Of a DNA stretch of 64,000 nucleotides, positions 3,359 to 52,977 are shown piece by piece. The DNA is from Antedon mediterranea (taxonomy: Eukaryota > Echinodermata > Crinoidea > Comatulida > Antedonidae): the NCBI RefSeq assembly GCF_964355755.1, contig NC_092675.1:23972412-24036411 (forward strand). The letters run 5' to 3'. The notes below the pieces were generated by a model. The model ran no database searches. It had not been told where the DNA came from and saw only the letters and a list, made by a program, of their open reading frames with translations. The position numbers and the translations under genes were made by a program. The stretch's first letter is position 1; each line of letters begins with the position of its first letter.

Positions 3359-5032
3359 CTCAAGTATACCAAAATGACTATAGTTGAGAACAGTGGTAAA
3401 CTGGATCGTACATTAATGTTATTTGTTGTATATTATTACGTTTATCCTATTCTTTATCACTGTGCTCAAGTATACCAAAATGACTATAGTTGAGAACAGT
3501 GTTAAACGGGATCGTACATTAATGTTTTTTGTTGTATATTGTTAAGTTTATCCTATTCTTTATCACTGTGCTCAAGTATACCAAAATGACTGTAGTCGAG
3601 AACAGTGTTAAACGGGATCGTACATTAATGTACGTTTTTTGTTGTATATTGTTAAGTTTATCCTATTCTTTATCACTGTTCTCAAGTATACCAAAATGAC
3701 TATAGTTGAGAACAGAGTTAAACTGGATCGTACATTAATGTTTTTTGTTGTATATTGTTAAGTTTATCCTATTATCACTGTTCTCAAGTATACCAAAATA
3801 ACTATAGTTGAGAACAGTGTTAAACTGGATCGTACATTAATGTTTTTTGTTGTATATTGTTAAGTTTATCCTATTCTGTATCACTGTTCTCAAGTATACC
3901 AAAATGACTATAGTTGAGAACAGAGTTAAACTGGATCGTACATTAATGTTTTTTGTTGTATATTGTTAAGTTTATCCTATTCTTTATCACTGTTCTCAAG
4001 TATACCAAAATAACTATAGTTGAGAACAGTGTTAAACTGGATCGTACATTAATGTTTTTTGTTGTATATTTTTAAGTTTATCCTATTCTTTATCACTGTG
4101 CTCAAGTATACCAAAATGACTATAGTTGAGAACAGTGTTAAACTGGATCGTACATTAATGTTTTTTGTTGTATATTTTTAAGTTTATTCTATTCTTTATC
4201 ACTGTGCTCAAGTATACCAAAATGACTATAGTTGAGAACAGTGGTAAACTGGATCGTACATTAATGTTATTTGTTGTATATTATTAAGTTTATCCTATTC
4301 TTTATCACTGTGCTCAAGTATACCAAAATGACTATAGTTGAGAACAGTGTTAAACGGGATCGTACATTAATGTTTGTTGTTGTATATTGTTAAGTTTATC
4401 CTATTCTTTATCACTGTTCTCAAGTATACCAAAATGACTATAGTTGAGAACAGTGTTAAACTGGATCGTACATTAATGTTTTTTGTTGTATATTGCTAAG
4501 TTTATCCTATTCTTTATCACTGTTCTCAAGTATACCAAAATGACTATAGTTGAGAACAGTGTTAAACGGGATCGTACATTAATGTTTTTTGTTGTATATT
4601 GTTAAGTTTATCCTATTCTTTATAACTGTTCTCAAGTATACCAAAATGACTATAGTTGAGAACAGTGTTAAACTGGATCGTACATTAATGTTTTTTGTTG
4701 TATATTGTTAAGTTTATCCTATTCTTTATCACTGTGCTCAAGTATACCAAAATGACTATAGTTGAGAACAGTGTTAAACGGGATCGTACATTGTTGTTGT
4801 ATATTGTTAAGTTTATCCTATTCTTTATCACTGTTCTCAAGTATACCAAAATGACTATAGTTGAGAACAGTGTTAAACGGGATCGTACATTAATGTTATT
4901 TGTTGTATATTGTTAAGTTTATCCTATTCTTTATCAATGTGCTCAAGTATACCAAAATGACTATAGTTGAGAACAGTGTTAAACTACATCGTACATTAAT
5001 GTTATTTGTTGTATATTGTTAAGTGTATTCTT
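3359..5032. repeat. 106-bp minisatellite, about 16 copies (unit B)
   Basis: Units start with CTCAAGTATACCAAAATGAC and recur at about 3359, 3465, 3571, 3681 and so on to about 4940, mostly 106 bp apart (one is 110 bp through a TACG insertion). Each unit contains an inverted repeat, ACTGTTCTCAA and TTGAGAACAGT, around a ~20-nt loop, so each can fold as a hairpin. Open frames across it are repeat artefacts. The duplicate is at 19662-21335. Confidence 0.92.
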
Positions 5033-7276
5033 TATTCTTATTAATTGTACTAAATTATTAAAAGAAACAGTAGTAAGCATAACATTTCCCCACTCCTACA
5101 TTAGCATGGTAGGACATTGTAATGGTCGCAGGTGGCTCAACTTTACTGCAATGGGATGGACATGGTCCTACTTCCACCTTACCATCCAATAGGATTCCAG
5201 TAAATTTCCTTTACTACCAATCATAATTCAGTAATTAAATGACCCCTTAAGTTAACAAGGAAATCAGCCTATCCCATTATACCGGTAGGCTTCGTCGTTA
5301 CAGGCGTACTGCGGTAATAGTTGAGAATTCTCAACTAGCCAATTTGGTATATTTTATATACCTGTCACAACATGTTACCTCTTCGAATCCGAGGTGTTTT
5401 TTGGAAACGTAATAAGTACACAACCATGGCCCAACTTATTGCATCATCAACAGCCAATGAAACGCCTTGGATTGGATTGGTATTTTAATATATTTAATAT
5501 TTAAAAATATTGTGACGAATTCCCAAACATAATTAATATTATAGGCCAGAATAAAATACACGTTGTTGTTATTATGATTGTACTACAATATAAGTCACAC
5601 GGTATATTGATTTTTTGAACGAGTTCTAACGCATAGTATGAGGATTGACAAATATTTCTTCTTTTTCTCTTTCATGATTTAACACGCATTGACATTTGAA
5701 AATAAATTGTGCGATATTAGCATGAATAAATATTATTTTTGTCATTAAATAAGACCGTATAAATAACAACTCAAATAGATGAAATTAGTATAAATATAAA
5801 CTACAACATCTTGATTTTTATTGGTATTAGTGTTTGTTCAGCAAATTGCTAGTGCGGCGTGCTATCGGGGTTTTTTCTGCGTATTAAATTTTGGCCCTCC
5901 GGCATTTTAATTATGTTAAAGTAATTTAATAAATTAAGATTGTAGGTCTATGTGTAAAACCCTGAGTTTTTTTCCAATTCCTAAATACCAATTGTTTCAT
6001 AACATGAACGCAATACATTGATGATCAGAGGTGTGACAACAAATATTCGAATTAAAGAAAAAGCCTGAAGACCCACATCATCAGAAAATGAACTTAATAG
6101 TATGAACGTTTACACCAAGACATTTTATCAAAATTAAAAACCGTAGCTAACTTTGTGAAGCGTTTCATTAGTTAATTAATTTATTAATTTGTCCATGGTT
6201 AATATTTAAAAAGTTGAAAACAAGAAATAGCCTAACAAATACAGAACCATTTATAACTAATGTTGAAAACACAGATGGAATATTTATGCTTGGTCACATT
6301 TTAAGGCTTGAATAGTGCATTTTAGCAGCTCTAAAATATTTTCAGTACGCCGCGGAGTGTGACCAACGGGTCTTTTCACAACTTTATTTAACGACTTTAT
6401 TTATCTACTAAACTGTGGCCTTACAAATTATTTTAATAAACTGAGAGAAACTGCAGCAAATCGTGGTCAAATTTATTTTAATTACTGTACAGTACTATTA
6501 TAGCTTGTTTATGCAAGAAAGACATTACTAATTATTTATAAAAGAGAAAATTTTCATTATGAAATGTTAGTCGTAATCCCAGTCCCAAATACCCATTGTA
6601 TTGTCGAGTCAGCTAGCCGTAGAAGCTTTCGTGACGTGATACAGTTTCCCAATGTTTCCGCGCAAAAGAACCATTTCCGCTACACAATTATACTGTACCT
6701 CGTTTATGTGTGACGTTTTCACATCCGTGTTGGTGATATCGTCGCGACTCTCTCCTAGCTCCGATCTCTCGACGGTATACTCTTCATTGTTTATTATATT
6801 ATTGTACTACCGTTGATTGATCATACTTTTTTGGCCTAGGCCTAGTATTATTGAATTTGGCAATTTAATATGTAAGTATGGAGTATTATATATCATAAAT
6901 ACTGTAGGCTTAACCACCCAACCACCCTTTTCAATGTACCATTAGTATAATATACAGTACCAGCTAGTGGTATTGTAACAAGATTCTTTCCCTGATATAT
7001 TGATATACAGTACTAAGTTGGAATTTACATGCATTGTGAAATAGCTCTATTTCCTCAATATATTAAAACTAAAGTCACATGTCTGATAGAGTCAGATGGA
7101 TGGTTGATGGTATGGTGCTATTGTTGCATTATTTGTTGTCTTTTTTTGACTTTCTATATAGGCCTAGTTTAATTTTTTTTTTTATAACTTACAGGAAAAA
7201 ATAGATATTTTTTTATATTCATCAGAAATAATACCATAATAACGTTTTGTATTTTTTGTTTCTAGCTCGATTGAAA
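5033..7276. other. Intergenic, upstream of MS4A-like gene (unit B)
   Basis: No coding exon was recognised. A perfect 20-bp palindrome, TAGTTGAGAATTCTCAACTA, lies at 5318-5337 and looks like a derivative of the minisatellite hairpin arms. The part nearest the gene (about 6580-7200) differs markedly from the unit C copy (22880-23520) by small indels and substitutions. It should contain the promoter and any non-coding first exon, but I could not place a start site. Confidence 0.5.
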
Positions 7277-46681: not shown

Positions 46682-48753
46682 ATGTATTTTACTGTGCTCT
46701 TTTCGGCTGTACTCTGTATTGAGCCTGCTTTTGCGAGTTCTCAATTATATACAGTGGTTTCACAACGTTCTCTTCTGGGCTGGAGTTACCAGCTTCTTAA
46801 CATCGATCGTGCTGGATGTTTGTTGGCTTGTTCCAGGAAAGTTTACTGTTGGTCTGTTAACTACAGTAAACAGAATCGTTTGTGTCAAATGAATACAAAT
46901 GTACAAGACAAAGCATCTACAGCAGATTTTCAACAAGATCTTTCATATGAATATATAGAGAAGGTAGGCCTATAGTTACAGAACTATTTAAACTTTACTT
47001 CTTATTAACATCATCATTGAGCGAGCGAGTGGCCGAGCGGTTAAGAAGACAGCGGAACCGTATTTACGTAGCCATAGCATCAGCAAGGGTTCAAGGCTCA
47101 CTCGCTCCATGGTTCTGGTGATGGACCAAATCTTCTCGGATAGGGACTATAAACCGTAGGTCCAGTGTGCACCTCTAGCTCATGTGCACTTTAAAGAACC
47201 TAGTACATCTTTCGAGACGAGTAGGGGGTTACCCCGGTGCACCAGCAACTGGTCATAACTGAGCCCTCTTTGACTGAAGAGGTCACCTAGTATAAATAAA
47301 TAATACAGTACAAACTTCAACAATTATTATAATGAACTCATAGAATTTTAACAGTCTTTTATTGTATAAATTGTATTTCTTATTTAGGTATTGGATGACA
47401 GCTTGAATCACCGTGAGTATAATCAATTTTTCTTTGATAGACTACAAGTTTCAAACATGTTTTGAGTAAGAACTACAGCATGTCCTATAGCTGTTCCTTA
47501 GCCGTTATTCTTATTTTTTACTGCCAAGAAAAACTTTATAACTAAATCCACAAAGTAAATTGGCAGAAAACTAAGTGTGTGTTTTTTTACCAACCAGAAC
47601 AACAGGAAGACAAACGTAGTTGCTGTGCTGTTACACGATCTAAATTTCAATATAGCTTCCGGCCAGAAATTATTTCAAGAGTTGAAAACTAAAAATTATC
47701 TCGAAAATCACTCATAACTCTGTTAATTTAGAAATGCCGCAAGTTTAGATTATTTAATAAAAAACGTTTTTAACTAACCTCTTTTAAGTCACATCGACCA
47801 TAATTGTCTTTTTTTCAGATGATGTTTTTTCTATTTTAACTATTTCTACTTACGAAGTAGCATCCAGTACGTGTACCAATAACTTAGGTTCGCTTGCATC
47901 GTATGAACAACTTTACAACGCGTATCAACCACGTATGGACAACTGTTTCGAAGGATGGCTGATTAGTGGTGAGATAGCCTTCATCGAAATCAGCGGAGAC
48001 AAATGCACATTGAATTCACCAGATCAACGAAGTAATGTTTTCCCAGACAAAACATATGAAAGTGGCTATTATTGTTACAGAGGATATAATCAACTATTAG
48101 GTTTATTTGATTATATTCCGAAAACCCAACGAATTATAAGGCTAACCGGTTTAAATTCAGATAAACTGAACGGCAGTGAAGCTGAGGCAAGATGCAGTGA
48201 CGGTGGTACTGGTGGTCGGCTGGCGACTCCTTTTGAGGTTTTTAACGCATCATACTCACTAGGTGTTGATCTTTGTACAGATGGCTGGTTCTTGAGAGGA
48301 TTGGCGGGAAATCCTTGCTCGGGGAATACTCCATCGACATTTTGGCTTTATCCAACTGGTAACTTCATTTGGTTACAAGATCCATCAACAGAATGGTTTG
48401 CAATGTGTTATATTCCTTTACCAAACCATAGTATCACGTATCAAGATCCATTTCCCTCTCATCGTGTGATGTACGTACGCGGAATTGAAAGATACCAGCT
48501 TACGTACCAGGATGCTAAGGATAGATGCTCTGGTTACACTGATGGAGCACTGGCAACAAGTGAACAAGTAGAGGCGTCACAATTAGCTGGTTATGATTGC
48601 TGTAACTATGGCTGGGTTGATCAAGGAACAAGGGTCATGTATCCTGTAACGCATTATATAGCACATGAGTGCGATATTAATAATGCGCGGTCAGCGGGTG
48701 CTAATTCTAAATACGACGGGTTTTGTTACATTGCTGCCCCTACCCGGAAATAA
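46682..48753 (+). CDS. Secreted PAN plus three Link-domain protein
   Basis: Exons 46682-46963, 47388-47412 and 47819-48753 join in phase to 413 residues. It opens with a signal peptide (MYFTVLFSAVLCIEPAFA, cleavage after AFA). Residues ~22-94 are PAN/apple-like, with the spacing CLLACSRKVYCWSVNY..LC. Three Link modules follow (about 115-191, 223-301 and 331-409). Each shows the pattern C-x-G-x-LA(S/T)-x-E-x(5,7)-A ... C-x(1,3)-GW ... C ... C, for example GGRLATPFEVFNAS with LCTDGWF, and GALATSEQVEAS with CCNYGWV. Link modules bind hyaluronan or other glycans in TSG-6, aggrecan and CD44, so an extracellular matrix or glycan-binding role is likely. All three modules share one exon, unlike the usual one exon per module. 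AATAAA lies at 48858. An upstream in-frame TTG was rejected as start. Confidence 0.8.
47020..47305 (+). mobile_element. tRNA-derived SINE, copy 2
   Basis: Same head and body as 43328-43645, in intron 1 of the Link-domain gene. The anticodon-side region is slightly altered (AAGAAGACAG) and ~30 bp of the body is missing. Confidence 0.85.
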
Positions 48754-49173: not shown

Positions 49174-49490
49174 ATGAGTGAGTGAGTGGCCGAGCGGTTA
49201 AGACAGTGGAACCGTAATTACGTAGCCATAATATCGGCAGGGGTTCGAGGCTCACTCACTCCATGGTTCTGGTGGTAGAACGAGTCTTCTCGGATAAGGA
49301 CTATAAACCGTAGGTCCAGTGTACACATCTAGCTCGTGTGCACTTTAAAGAACCTAGTACATCTTTCGAGACGAGTAGGGGGTTACCCATGTGTATTAGT
49401 ACATCACAGCCACTGATCACCAACTGGGCCCTCTGGGAGACCAGTCTTTGACTGAAGAGGTTACCCAGTAAATATAAATGTCAATCAATT
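49174..49490 (+). mobile_element. tRNA-derived SINE, copy 3
   Basis: Closest to copy 1, with the same A-box, B-box and conserved body. The tail is AAATATAAATGTCAATCAAT. Confidence 0.85.
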
Positions 49491-50330: not shown

Positions 50331-51200
50331 ATCTTGTTACCAAACCTACTAATTAATGTGTACGGTACTGTTCTTATTTAGTTTTATTATTATTTTAGGG
50401 GTCATTGTGAGACAAATTTTACTTTTAATTTTGATCCCTAAGATGGTTTTATATAAATTGTTGATTATTGTTTATTGAATTATTGTTTGTAATGACCATC
50501 TTAAATAAATGTTTATTGAAACTTGATATACCGTACTAATGAAATGTATTAACGTATTCGGAAACTATTTTATTTGAGATACGCGAGAGACAAGTTGAAA
50601 ATCATAAAGTTTACATAACATTGCCGTATTTTTAAAATTCATACAATAGGTATAGTATTAGAAGAACAAAATACGCCTTTTTTTAAAGTACAGTCCATCA
50701 TTAAGTAGATTAGTGATTAGTTGAACAGTCTACCTTATTACAATTTGTCAATATAATTAATGTTATAAGAAATGAAAACAAATTGTTAATAACAATATTT
50801 ATACAATTTAGAAAATTACTCACTTTTATTATTGTCATACAGTATGGTTGTTTATATAATAACTTTTTAAAGATATATCATAAGTGTATTAGTGATTAAG
50901 TTAAATTAAGTATTTAGATCAATGGAAATGAAATGAAATATAAAGAAAAGAAAAAGGACTCTTTTATTACTATCTTATTGTTGTTTATACCATAATCATA
51001 AATAAGTAATTAGCAAACTTACACACAGAGAATTTATATCTCAACAACGATGAGCAATGTTTATTACCTCTATACCTAATGTACGGTATACATTAATATT
51101 TTATTTGCATATGGCATACCCAGCACAAGATATCCACATCTTCTCGGGATTATGCCTTCCTCCATAGCCTATATATATACGGTAGGTCTTTGCCTGATTT

Positions 51201-51208
<8 letters not shown>
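50331..51208. other. AT-rich intergenic DNA
   Basis: No exon on either strand. A segment at about 50395-50530 ending AAATAAATGTTTATTGAAAC may be a retroelement tail. Confidence 0.4.

Positions 51209-51252
<44 letters not shown>
51209..51252. repeat. (TA)n microsatellite
   Basis: About 22 TA steps directly beside the 3' end of the Penelope-like fragment. Another short TA run lies at 52111-52131 beyond its other end. Confidence 0.95.
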
Positions 51253-51257
<5 letters not shown>

Positions 51258-51286
51258 ATAACAGCAGAAAACTTGGTTACTTCATT

Positions 51287-51359
51287 GTTTTAATCACTAC
51301 AAATTTGTTTCGTACGACCAGCATGTAGCTGGCCGCACTCTTCAGGTGAAATATAAAAC
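51287..51359 (-). ncRNA. Hammerhead ribozyme (type I, Penelope-like element)
   Basis: On the minus strand the core CTGAAGA (C3-U4-G5-A6-N7-G8-A9) is followed by an 11-bp stem II, GTGCGGCCAGC with GCTGGTCGTAC (two G-U pairs, TACAT loop). Next come GAA and a very short stem III made by ACAAATTTGT. The cleavage base is A at 51298, with the cut falling between 51298 and 51297. Stem I closes with TCAC/GTGA, an internal loop, then GTTTTA/TAAAAC. All universally conserved hammerhead positions are present. Minimal stem III and an internal loop in stem I are typical of the ribozymes known in Penelope-like elements and retrozymes. It lies just 3' of the endonuclease frame, where the element's terminal repeat is expected. 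Confidence 0.88.
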
Positions 51360-51433
51360 ATAAGTGACACAGTTGTCTCATAGTGCTTAATAGAAGTGAG
51401 TCATCGGGAAGTCGTATACAATAGCCTATTGTT

Positions 51434-52078
51434 TTAGATAAACTGTTTGGATCTGCAATTTAGTAAGAATTTTTTCCTACGTCTACAAGTAGAGACTAAC
51501 TCGTTCTTACGGTTCAGTGAGCATAGCTCTGGTTGACATATAATAACATACTTTTCATATATACATAAATTACATCTTTTGTTAATATTTGAGTAAGGTT
51601 TGCATTTCTTTATAATTTTCCATTTAATTGAGTAATTTGTTTTAGAGTCTTTAGGCCTAAGTGTCCATATATATTTACTGAGTTCCGTTGCATTTCTTAG
51701 TTTTTCGTTCCGGAATGAAGACGTATGGTTTCTGTATCTAGTTTTAAACTGGTTTTCAGTTAGTCCGACATATGTTTCTTCTTTTGATGAATCTTCTCTC
51801 TTTACTGTAGCTTGGTAAACTACACCTTTTGTTAGGCAGTTACCTGGGAGCGGGCATTCATTGGGATTGCGGCAGTTACATCCGCTTGTTTTCGCGTTGG
51901 TTTCAGTAGACTTTTCTTTGGCTATCACATATTTGTTGTGTGCGTTAATTACTTTGTCTACGCTGGGCATGCAACTATAGCTTAGTTTCAAGGTATTTTT
52001 GTTAAATATTTTTCTGAGCTTGTTGCCGGCAGGAAAACAATCTTCTACCTCTAATGCTCTACCTTGGTATTGAGCACT
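51434..52078 (-). pseudogene. Penelope-like retroelement, 3' fragment with GIY-YIG endonuclease
   Basis: Continuous minus-strand frame of 214 codons, open from just after a TAG at 52079-52081 and with no ATG. It contains FPAGNKLRKIF, LSYSCMPSV, a Cys cluster (CNCRNPNECPLPGNC), then a GIY-YIG nuclease core beginning VVYQATV and YVGLTENQFKTRYRNH, ELSKYIW, CNLC and a final STCRRRKKFLL. This order is that of the C-terminal endonuclease region of endonuclease-bearing Penelope-like elements. The reverse transcriptase upstream is absent, so the copy is 5'-truncated, as reverse-transcribed insertions often are. A host GIY-YIG protein such as SLX1 is unlikely given the Cys cluster and the adjoining hammerhead ribozyme. 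The nuclease part has no internal stop, so the insertion looks young. Confidence 0.88.
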
Positions 52079-52131
52079 CTATCCAAACGGTCTGAAAATT
52101 TTAACCTGAATATATATATATATATATGTAT

Positions 52132-52977
52132 ATATAATTCTCTTTTCTTTTGTCCATCCAACAATCATCATAATCCTTTTTTTTTGTCTTGTGTGAGTTC
52201 ATCTCACGTTTATTTAAATTCTCATTGGTGAATATATTATATACATATAAGTACATTTGTGACAATTAAAAGTAAGTGTTTAAAGTAGTTAAAATAGGCC
52301 TACAGGTATATTTACATAATAAGATGCTTGAATTCAGTATTAACCATATTTGTTTTCATTTAAAATTTTAGTTACGATGTTAATTAAAATGTAAAAATGA
52401 GAAATGGCGGTAAAATACATGGTTCAAATGTTTTTGTTAAACTATCTTATTTGTGATCTTATTTGTGTTCGATAGAGAGGCTATAAACTCAGAGGAGGAA
52501 AATGTAGTATCCTCCCTTTTCACCAAATAAAAAGGATGAAATGAAAAAAGAGGAATGCAAAAGTTTGAAAGTTAGATATTTAGAATGATAGCGTGCAATG
52601 ATATAATATTTAATTTTAATCTTAAAGCTCTCTGTGCTTATTTGAGTTTCTCCGGGTACAAGGGATTAACTATTAATTTGATTCATATTTTGTCAACATA
52701 TTTTGAATTTTGCTTTGTGTAAATAAATAAATGAATGAATCTTAATTTTTTTACCTTATCATTTCTGTATACTATTTTGTATTGTTACTGCTATGGAGGA
52801 AAATAAATGTCTTTTGAAATGAAATGAAAAATTGAAGTAAGCTGGGCCTATTCTATATTTGAAAACCTTTAAGAGACAGAAGGCAGTTCCTTAATTACGT
52901 TATTCTTATTTTTCTTTATTACCATGAAGAACATACAGACCTTACCTAAAAAAATTCACGAAGTAAATGGCAAGCTA
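52132..52977. other. AT-rich intergenic DNA
   Basis: No gene recognised. A stretch ending GTAAATAAATAAATGAATG near 52740 looks like a retroelement 3' tail. Confidence 0.4.

Follow-up and report, generated by a model that had tools for sequence, protein, structure and literature searches.

A minimal type I hammerhead ribozyme in a probable Penelope-like retrotransposon insertion of the crinoid Antedon mediterranea

Hammerhead ribozymes have been described in the pseudo-LTRs of Penelope-like elements (Cervera and de la Pena 2014; Lunse, Weinberg and Breaker 2017; according to the accounts in PMC7761336 and PMC6155905), and dimeric cleavage by Penelope-type hammerheads has been reported (Lunse 2017, as cited in PMC7761336). 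The ribozyme of the anole element needs the protein of the element and does not cleave without it; ribozyme mutants nevertheless still insert (PMC11167929). For the Penelope elements of rotifers, snap-back self-priming has been proposed, and the presence of a tail on one of two inverted ends has already been published (PMC3846280).

The DNA analysed here, referred to as the window, is a 64,000-nucleotide stretch of the A. mediterranea genome. Sequence evidence confirms that its minus strand encodes a genuine Penelope-type hammerhead, for which cleavage is predicted. The explanation as a whole, to which we assign a probability of about 0.88, is that the minimal type I hammerhead from the pseudo-LTR of a Penelope-like retrotransposon with an endonuclease is located in a dead, 5'-truncated insertion. 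The parts of the ribozyme are the following:

51286–51360, minus strand: hammerhead ribozyme, type I, with a minimal 3-bp palindromic stem III (from core, fold, genomic copies, and covariation)
51345–51339, minus strand: core CTGAAGA (RNA CUGAAGA)
51338–51328 with 51322–51312, minus strand: stem II, GTGCGGCCAGC/GCTGGTCGTAC, 11 bp including two G-U pairs, loop TACAT
51311–51309, minus strand: GAA of the core
51308–51299, minus strand: stem III, ACAAATTTGT, only 3 bp
51298, minus strand: A17, with cleavage predicted between 51298 and 51297
51349–51346 with 51297–51294, minus strand: inner stem I, TCAC/GTGA
51360–51354 with 51292–51286, minus strand: outer stem I, TGTTTTA/TAAAACA

The positions C3-U4-G5-A6-N7-G8-A9 and G12-A13-A14, the pair A15.1-U16.1, and H17 are all present on the minus strand. 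The unconstrained minimum-energy fold of the RNA is exactly that of a type I hammerhead, a three-helix junction open at stem I, with a stem III of 3 bp. The energy of the fold is -25 kcal/mol, compared with a mean of -13.3 for shuffled sequences (z -4.3), and none of 200 shuffles was equal or better. The first-pass annotation had described the conserved positions, an 11-bp stem II with two G-U pairs, a minimal stem III, and a two-part stem I, and all of these are present. Its placement of the motif at 51287–51359 on the minus strand also stands, but not the extent, because the outer stem I widens the motif to 51286–51360.

A pattern search of the 354-Mb genome, by which copies of the window's family were counted, detected 126 copies of the ribozyme stretch with up to three mismatches, and none of the reversed control pattern; the further copies that the first-pass annotation had proposed to look for therefore exist. 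At least 151 matches to the endonuclease frame exist in the genome, and hammerheads of differing sequence are positioned downstream of endonucleases in more distant families. Six families have been compared: that of the window (A), and families B to F, the last of which consists of one locus, L068. The endonucleases of families B, C, and D are 65%, about 59%, and about 42–45% identical to that of family A, and copies of family E are also found near a second, Pfam-positive type of GIY-YIG endonuclease. Because the relatives were selected through their core and three pairs of stem I, the covariation result is favoured; stem II was not used in the choice. In the structural alignment, which consists of equal-length segments assembled by hand from the helices, 95.4% of the cells pair across the six families and seven of the eleven pairs are altered on both sides. 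The covariation score is 0.770, compared with 0.209 in shuffles, none of 500 of which reached 0.770, and with 0.230 at most in slid controls. In stem II, two of the four pairs covary. Within this hand-made alignment of relatives selected by core and stem I, the helices are thus maintained by compensatory changes. The catalytic core positions are identical in the six families while the sequences of the stems vary, although this invariance is partly due to the search, because the families were found by the core pattern. The flanks preceding the ribozyme align little or not at all between families, indicating that the ribozyme motif has been kept while its flanks drift.

The hammerhead of family E (GCACTGATGAAGGGCTAGTGTTGCCCGAAAGCTCTGC) has about 1361 copies genome-wide with up to two mismatches, often adjoining (TA)n. 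Some of the copies form direct pairs 200–310 bp apart, and they occur near the Pfam-positive GIY-YIG endonuclease; examples are located at C1:9774056 and 9774331, C2:11173294 and 11173508, and L071:5299. A further hammerhead-like motif, CACCTGATGATGGGCAATGCCCGAAACATGTTGTG, at L068:899 (plus strand) has an 8-bp stem I and three tRNA matches nearby.

The ribozyme of the window belongs to an insertion with the following features:

51434–52048, minus strand: GIY-YIG-like endonuclease portion (the C-terminal 204 aa) of a Penelope-like polyprotein; copy truncated at its 5' end, RT part absent
51245–51285, minus strand: spacer between the ribozyme and the tail-less 3' end, where reverse transcription is presumed to start (site 1, about 54 nt past the cleavage site); runs into (TA)n
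52048–52054, no strand: junction of the two inverted arms, from comparison with the reference
52054–52112, plus strand: opposite inverted arm, consisting of the tail only (GCTCTACCTTGGTATTGAGC...), without a ribozyme, head-to-head with the endonuclease arm
51203–51250, no strand: (TA)n microsatellite at the 3' insertion edge; a second (TA)n is present at the other edge, about 52110–52136

The open frame extends from 51434 to 52078, and its homology to other copies begins at frame residue 11. The first-pass annotation had placed the ribozyme just 3' of a GIY-YIG endonuclease frame. The order is correct, with the frame ending at 51434, 74 nt upstream of the motif; the endonuclease, however, is better described as GIY-YIG-like. 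Longer versions of the polyprotein, of 649 aa in L071 and 760 aa in L073 (family B), contain the motifs FYPSI, YRDD, and NYLDVT, followed by GVVY...YVG...R...H. Because the polyprotein of the window's family has no meaningful match in Pfam, NCBIfam, or PDB, its identification as RT and endonuclease is based on these motifs and on a weak BLASTP match (E 3e-4), which coincides with the GIY-YIG motif, to another endonuclease of the same genome, which itself passes the Pfam GIY-YIG cut-off. The endonuclease part of the window alone was predicted by AlphaFold with a mean pLDDT of 44.

A full-length copy from family B (L073:3703–6421) is bounded by direct pseudo-LTRs at 3703–3970 and 6154–6421, which are 268 bp long and 100% identical. 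Each pseudo-LTR holds one ribozyme (3882 and 6333), and the 5' end of the element is 179 nt before the first of them. The second ribozyme that had been sought in full-length elements is thus present in the sister family. The copy lies at the (TA)n midpoint of a palindromic repeat, with AACTTATTTGATCTTGATTTATAT on one side and its reverse complement on the other. No intact direct pseudo-LTRs were seen around copies of the window's own family. Further properties of Penelope elements found here are 5' truncation, head-to-head inverted copies, an optional tail, and an AT-rich target. At many loci, the ribozyme and the endonuclease have been copied together with a constant distance between them. 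A hammerhead on a Penelope-like element, as initially annotated, is the best reading by its core, fold, covariation, and position after the endonuclease, and by the family B pseudo-LTRs, the tail, and the head-to-head copies.

Judged from its sequence, the copy in the window is a dead, 5'-truncated insertion that retains 204 endonuclease codons. It matches the reference only up to position 2137, where many other copies also end. The opposite arm corresponds to reference positions 2136–2218 on the plus strand, with a BLAST end at 52136 that includes (TA)n, and its tail has an exact match at C6:24024467 (plus strand). The tandem or terminal-repeat arrangement that the first-pass annotation had associated with the ribozyme is not seen in the window, whose copy makes up one of the two arms in a head-to-head composite. 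Insertions in the window (51185–51203), in L071 (about 2880–2920), and in L073 (about 3560–3640) are flanked by one and the same (TA)n repeat (TAAACAAATCAGGCAAAG...), which suggests that one repeat family has been repeatedly used as a target.

In intact elements, the ribozyme would be present in each pseudo-LTR and hence between the units of a transcript spanning repeated units, so that cleavage would split the units of a multimeric RNA. The predicted cut 5' of 51297 would be poor in a monomer, because stem III has only 3 bp, and may be better in a dimer, which the self-complementary ACAAAUUUGU would allow, or with the protein of the element. The palindromic stem III gives an intermolecular stem III of 10 bp, and the energy predicted for the dimer is -60.8 kcal/mol, compared with 2 x -25 kcal/mol for two monomers; the earlier suggestion of cleavage as a dimer is therefore plausible in silico. 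Cleavage aided by dimerization or by protein is expected from the structure and from published Penelope ribozymes. Our best guess is that the role of the ribozyme is to cut tandem transcripts, either by dimers or with the help of protein.

The 3' ends of the composites inspected are mostly at reference position 2137 or about 2216–2218. The cleavage position in the reference is 2083, by counting, and the 3' ends are about 54 or about 135 nt beyond it. These ends beyond the ribozyme, together with the 5' end 179 nt upstream of it in family B, indicate that the reverse-transcribed RNAs were uncut there, which agrees with the insertion by ribozyme mutants in PMC11167929. There would thus be two start sites of reverse transcription, about 54 nt and about 135 nt past the cleavage site, and the use of the second would yield the tail. 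That all inspected inserted copies come from RNA uncut at the ribozyme could also mean that the ribozyme was active in an ancestor and is now inactive, and that the stem-loop persists solely because the Penelope protein uses it as a signal for binding or for starting reverse transcription. The absence of protein-free cleavage and the insertion of ribozyme-dead RNA in PMC11167929 are compatible with such a loss of activity. So is the stem II of families B and D, which has a U-U mismatch at its base; the hammerheads may therefore differ in activity. However, a plain hairpin needs no C3, G5, A6, G8, A9, G12, A13, A14, or H17, and the core is invariant in six families while the stems differ, even if the core-based search partly selects for this invariance. 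We therefore regard inactivity as unlikely.

Many copies are head-to-head pairs with the ribozymes facing outward. Tails were counted from the positions of ribozymes and tails, in family A for 103 ribozyme copies, made up of the matches listed (out of 126) and three others. Among these copies, 20 pairs of family A have been identified, 17 with one tail, one with two tails, and two with none. The two arms of the sole pair with two tails are not identical in sequence. In family B, for which the listing with up to two mismatches is complete, all 12 pairs have one tail. Exactly one tail is thus present in 29 of the 32 pairs of families A (among the matches listed) and B. Since the frequency of tails per arm is about one half, independence predicts one tail in only half of the pairs (pooled P 1.2e-6 against independence). 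A tail-less ribozyme arm is opposite a tail-only inverted arm in 10 cases in family A (among the matches listed, the copy in the window included, with one nested exception) and nine in family B. The tail rule is more interesting than the ribozyme itself. A published count of tails per composite was not found in a literature search that did not cover key older papers.

The head-to-head composites might have been generated by snap-back self-priming of one cDNA rather than by two initiations. The arms are often identical, with 0 differences at 1363 and 1262 compared sites in two pairs, which would be expected of snap-back copying and suggests that both arms may derive from one shared RNA. However, unrelated young copies differ at as few as three sites, and in two other pairs the arms have four differences; the identity of the arms is therefore weak evidence. 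Furthermore, snap-back predicts a common 3' end and nearly equal truncation points, whereas the single tail is the rule and the arms of several composites are truncated hundreds of nucleotides apart. The one-tail rule and the unequal truncation argue against snap-back, which we consider improbable, and for two initiations, one per DNA strand, in line with the both-strand cutting and extension described in PMC11167929.

The odds appear even that the insertion of Penelope-like elements involves two coupled target-primed reverse transcriptions, one per strand. These would start by rule from two different sites located 3' of the hammerhead, and a single RNA, held by a protein dimer, would probably serve both. 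With a regular start at two different sites, the tail would be the mark of the second site and not optional noise, and head-to-head composites would be the normal product instead of snap-back artefacts. In the window, two initiations into the (TA)n site would have produced the arm with the endonuclease and ribozyme from site 1, and the short inverted arm, consisting of the tail only, from site 2.

It is very unlikely that the motif is a non-autonomous retrozyme-like repeat adjoining an endonuclease relic by accident. Hammerhead repeats of about 170–400 nt are known in many animals (PMC7229834), and some copies of the abundant family E form direct pairs; nevertheless, the co-copying with the endonuclease at a fixed spacing, and the same order inside direct pseudo-LTRs around a full frame in family B, speak against an accidental neighbourhood. 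Retrozymes are non-coding hammerhead repeats of a few hundred base pairs in tandem, whereas the ribozyme described here has been copied with a coding frame, and this classification was rejected.

Rfam models gave no hammerhead match in the window, neither at the gathering level nor with permissive E-values. The first-pass annotation had named a covariance score below threshold as a refutation, and the score is below threshold. The comparison set consisted of the window ribozyme and the sister-family hammerheads of the same genome, and the models had no match on the latter either; therefore, the test does not discriminate for the minimal subtype. A search of genomes with RF00008 produced no match, and neither did its control. 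Rfam models appear not to cover the minimal Penelope hammerhead subtype, and a covariance score is a detection tool and not a defining property of a hammerhead. Chance likeness of a stem-loop to a hammerhead, for which the missing Rfam match and the weakness of the bare core pattern (0.37 occurrences expected per window) might be cited, is ruled out by the covariation result and has a negligible probability, given the fold energy, the occurrence of the motif at the corresponding position in sister families, where its pairs show compensatory changes, and the full descriptor (stem I and stem II of at least 4 bp, stem III of at least 3 bp), which has one match in the window and two in total over 400 dinucleotide-shuffled windows (about 0.005 each).

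Elsewhere in the window, a dispersed repeat that begins like a tRNA (GTGGCCGAGCGGTTAAGA) occurs twice, at 47018–47239 and 49175–49393, and is probably a tRNA-derived SINE; ARAGORN called no tRNA in it. An open frame of 321 aa at 47788–48753 on the plus strand encodes extracellular link (Xlink) domains (Pfam E 2.9e-34).

The ribozyme extends the published pattern to another animal genome and indicates that Rfam misses hammerheads of this subtype. The many young copies allow tests of how Penelope-like elements insert and of the function of the ribozyme. They indicate that the RNAs which gave rise to insertions had not been cleaved at the ribozyme, and that start sites nearly always differ between the two ends of a double insertion. 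Like the minimal Penelope hammerheads in the published accounts consulted, that of the window is of type I, has a tiny or absent stem III, is part of a pseudo-LTR, and has a conserved core. It differs from those accounts in its two-part stem I (4 bp, an internal loop, and 7 bp), and from the other five families of this genome in its stem II of 11 bp instead of 3–7 bp. In Poseidon_Ac of Anolis carolinensis (Frangieh et al. 2024, PMC11167929), similarly, the ribozyme is closely followed by two internal start sites of reverse transcription, by which a tail is defined, the targets are AT-rich, and insertion does not depend on cleavage. The overlap of the ribozyme with the start of the reading frame is a feature of the anole element, and the protein of the window's family, unlike that of Poseidon_Ac, has no Pfam GIY-YIG match. 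The Penelope elements of Adineta vaga (PMC3846280) share the direct and inverted pseudo-LTRs, the head-to-head arrangement, the optional tail on one inverted end, and the 5' truncation. However, their copy number is low, whereas A. mediterranea contains enough young copies to show that the single tail is nearly constant.
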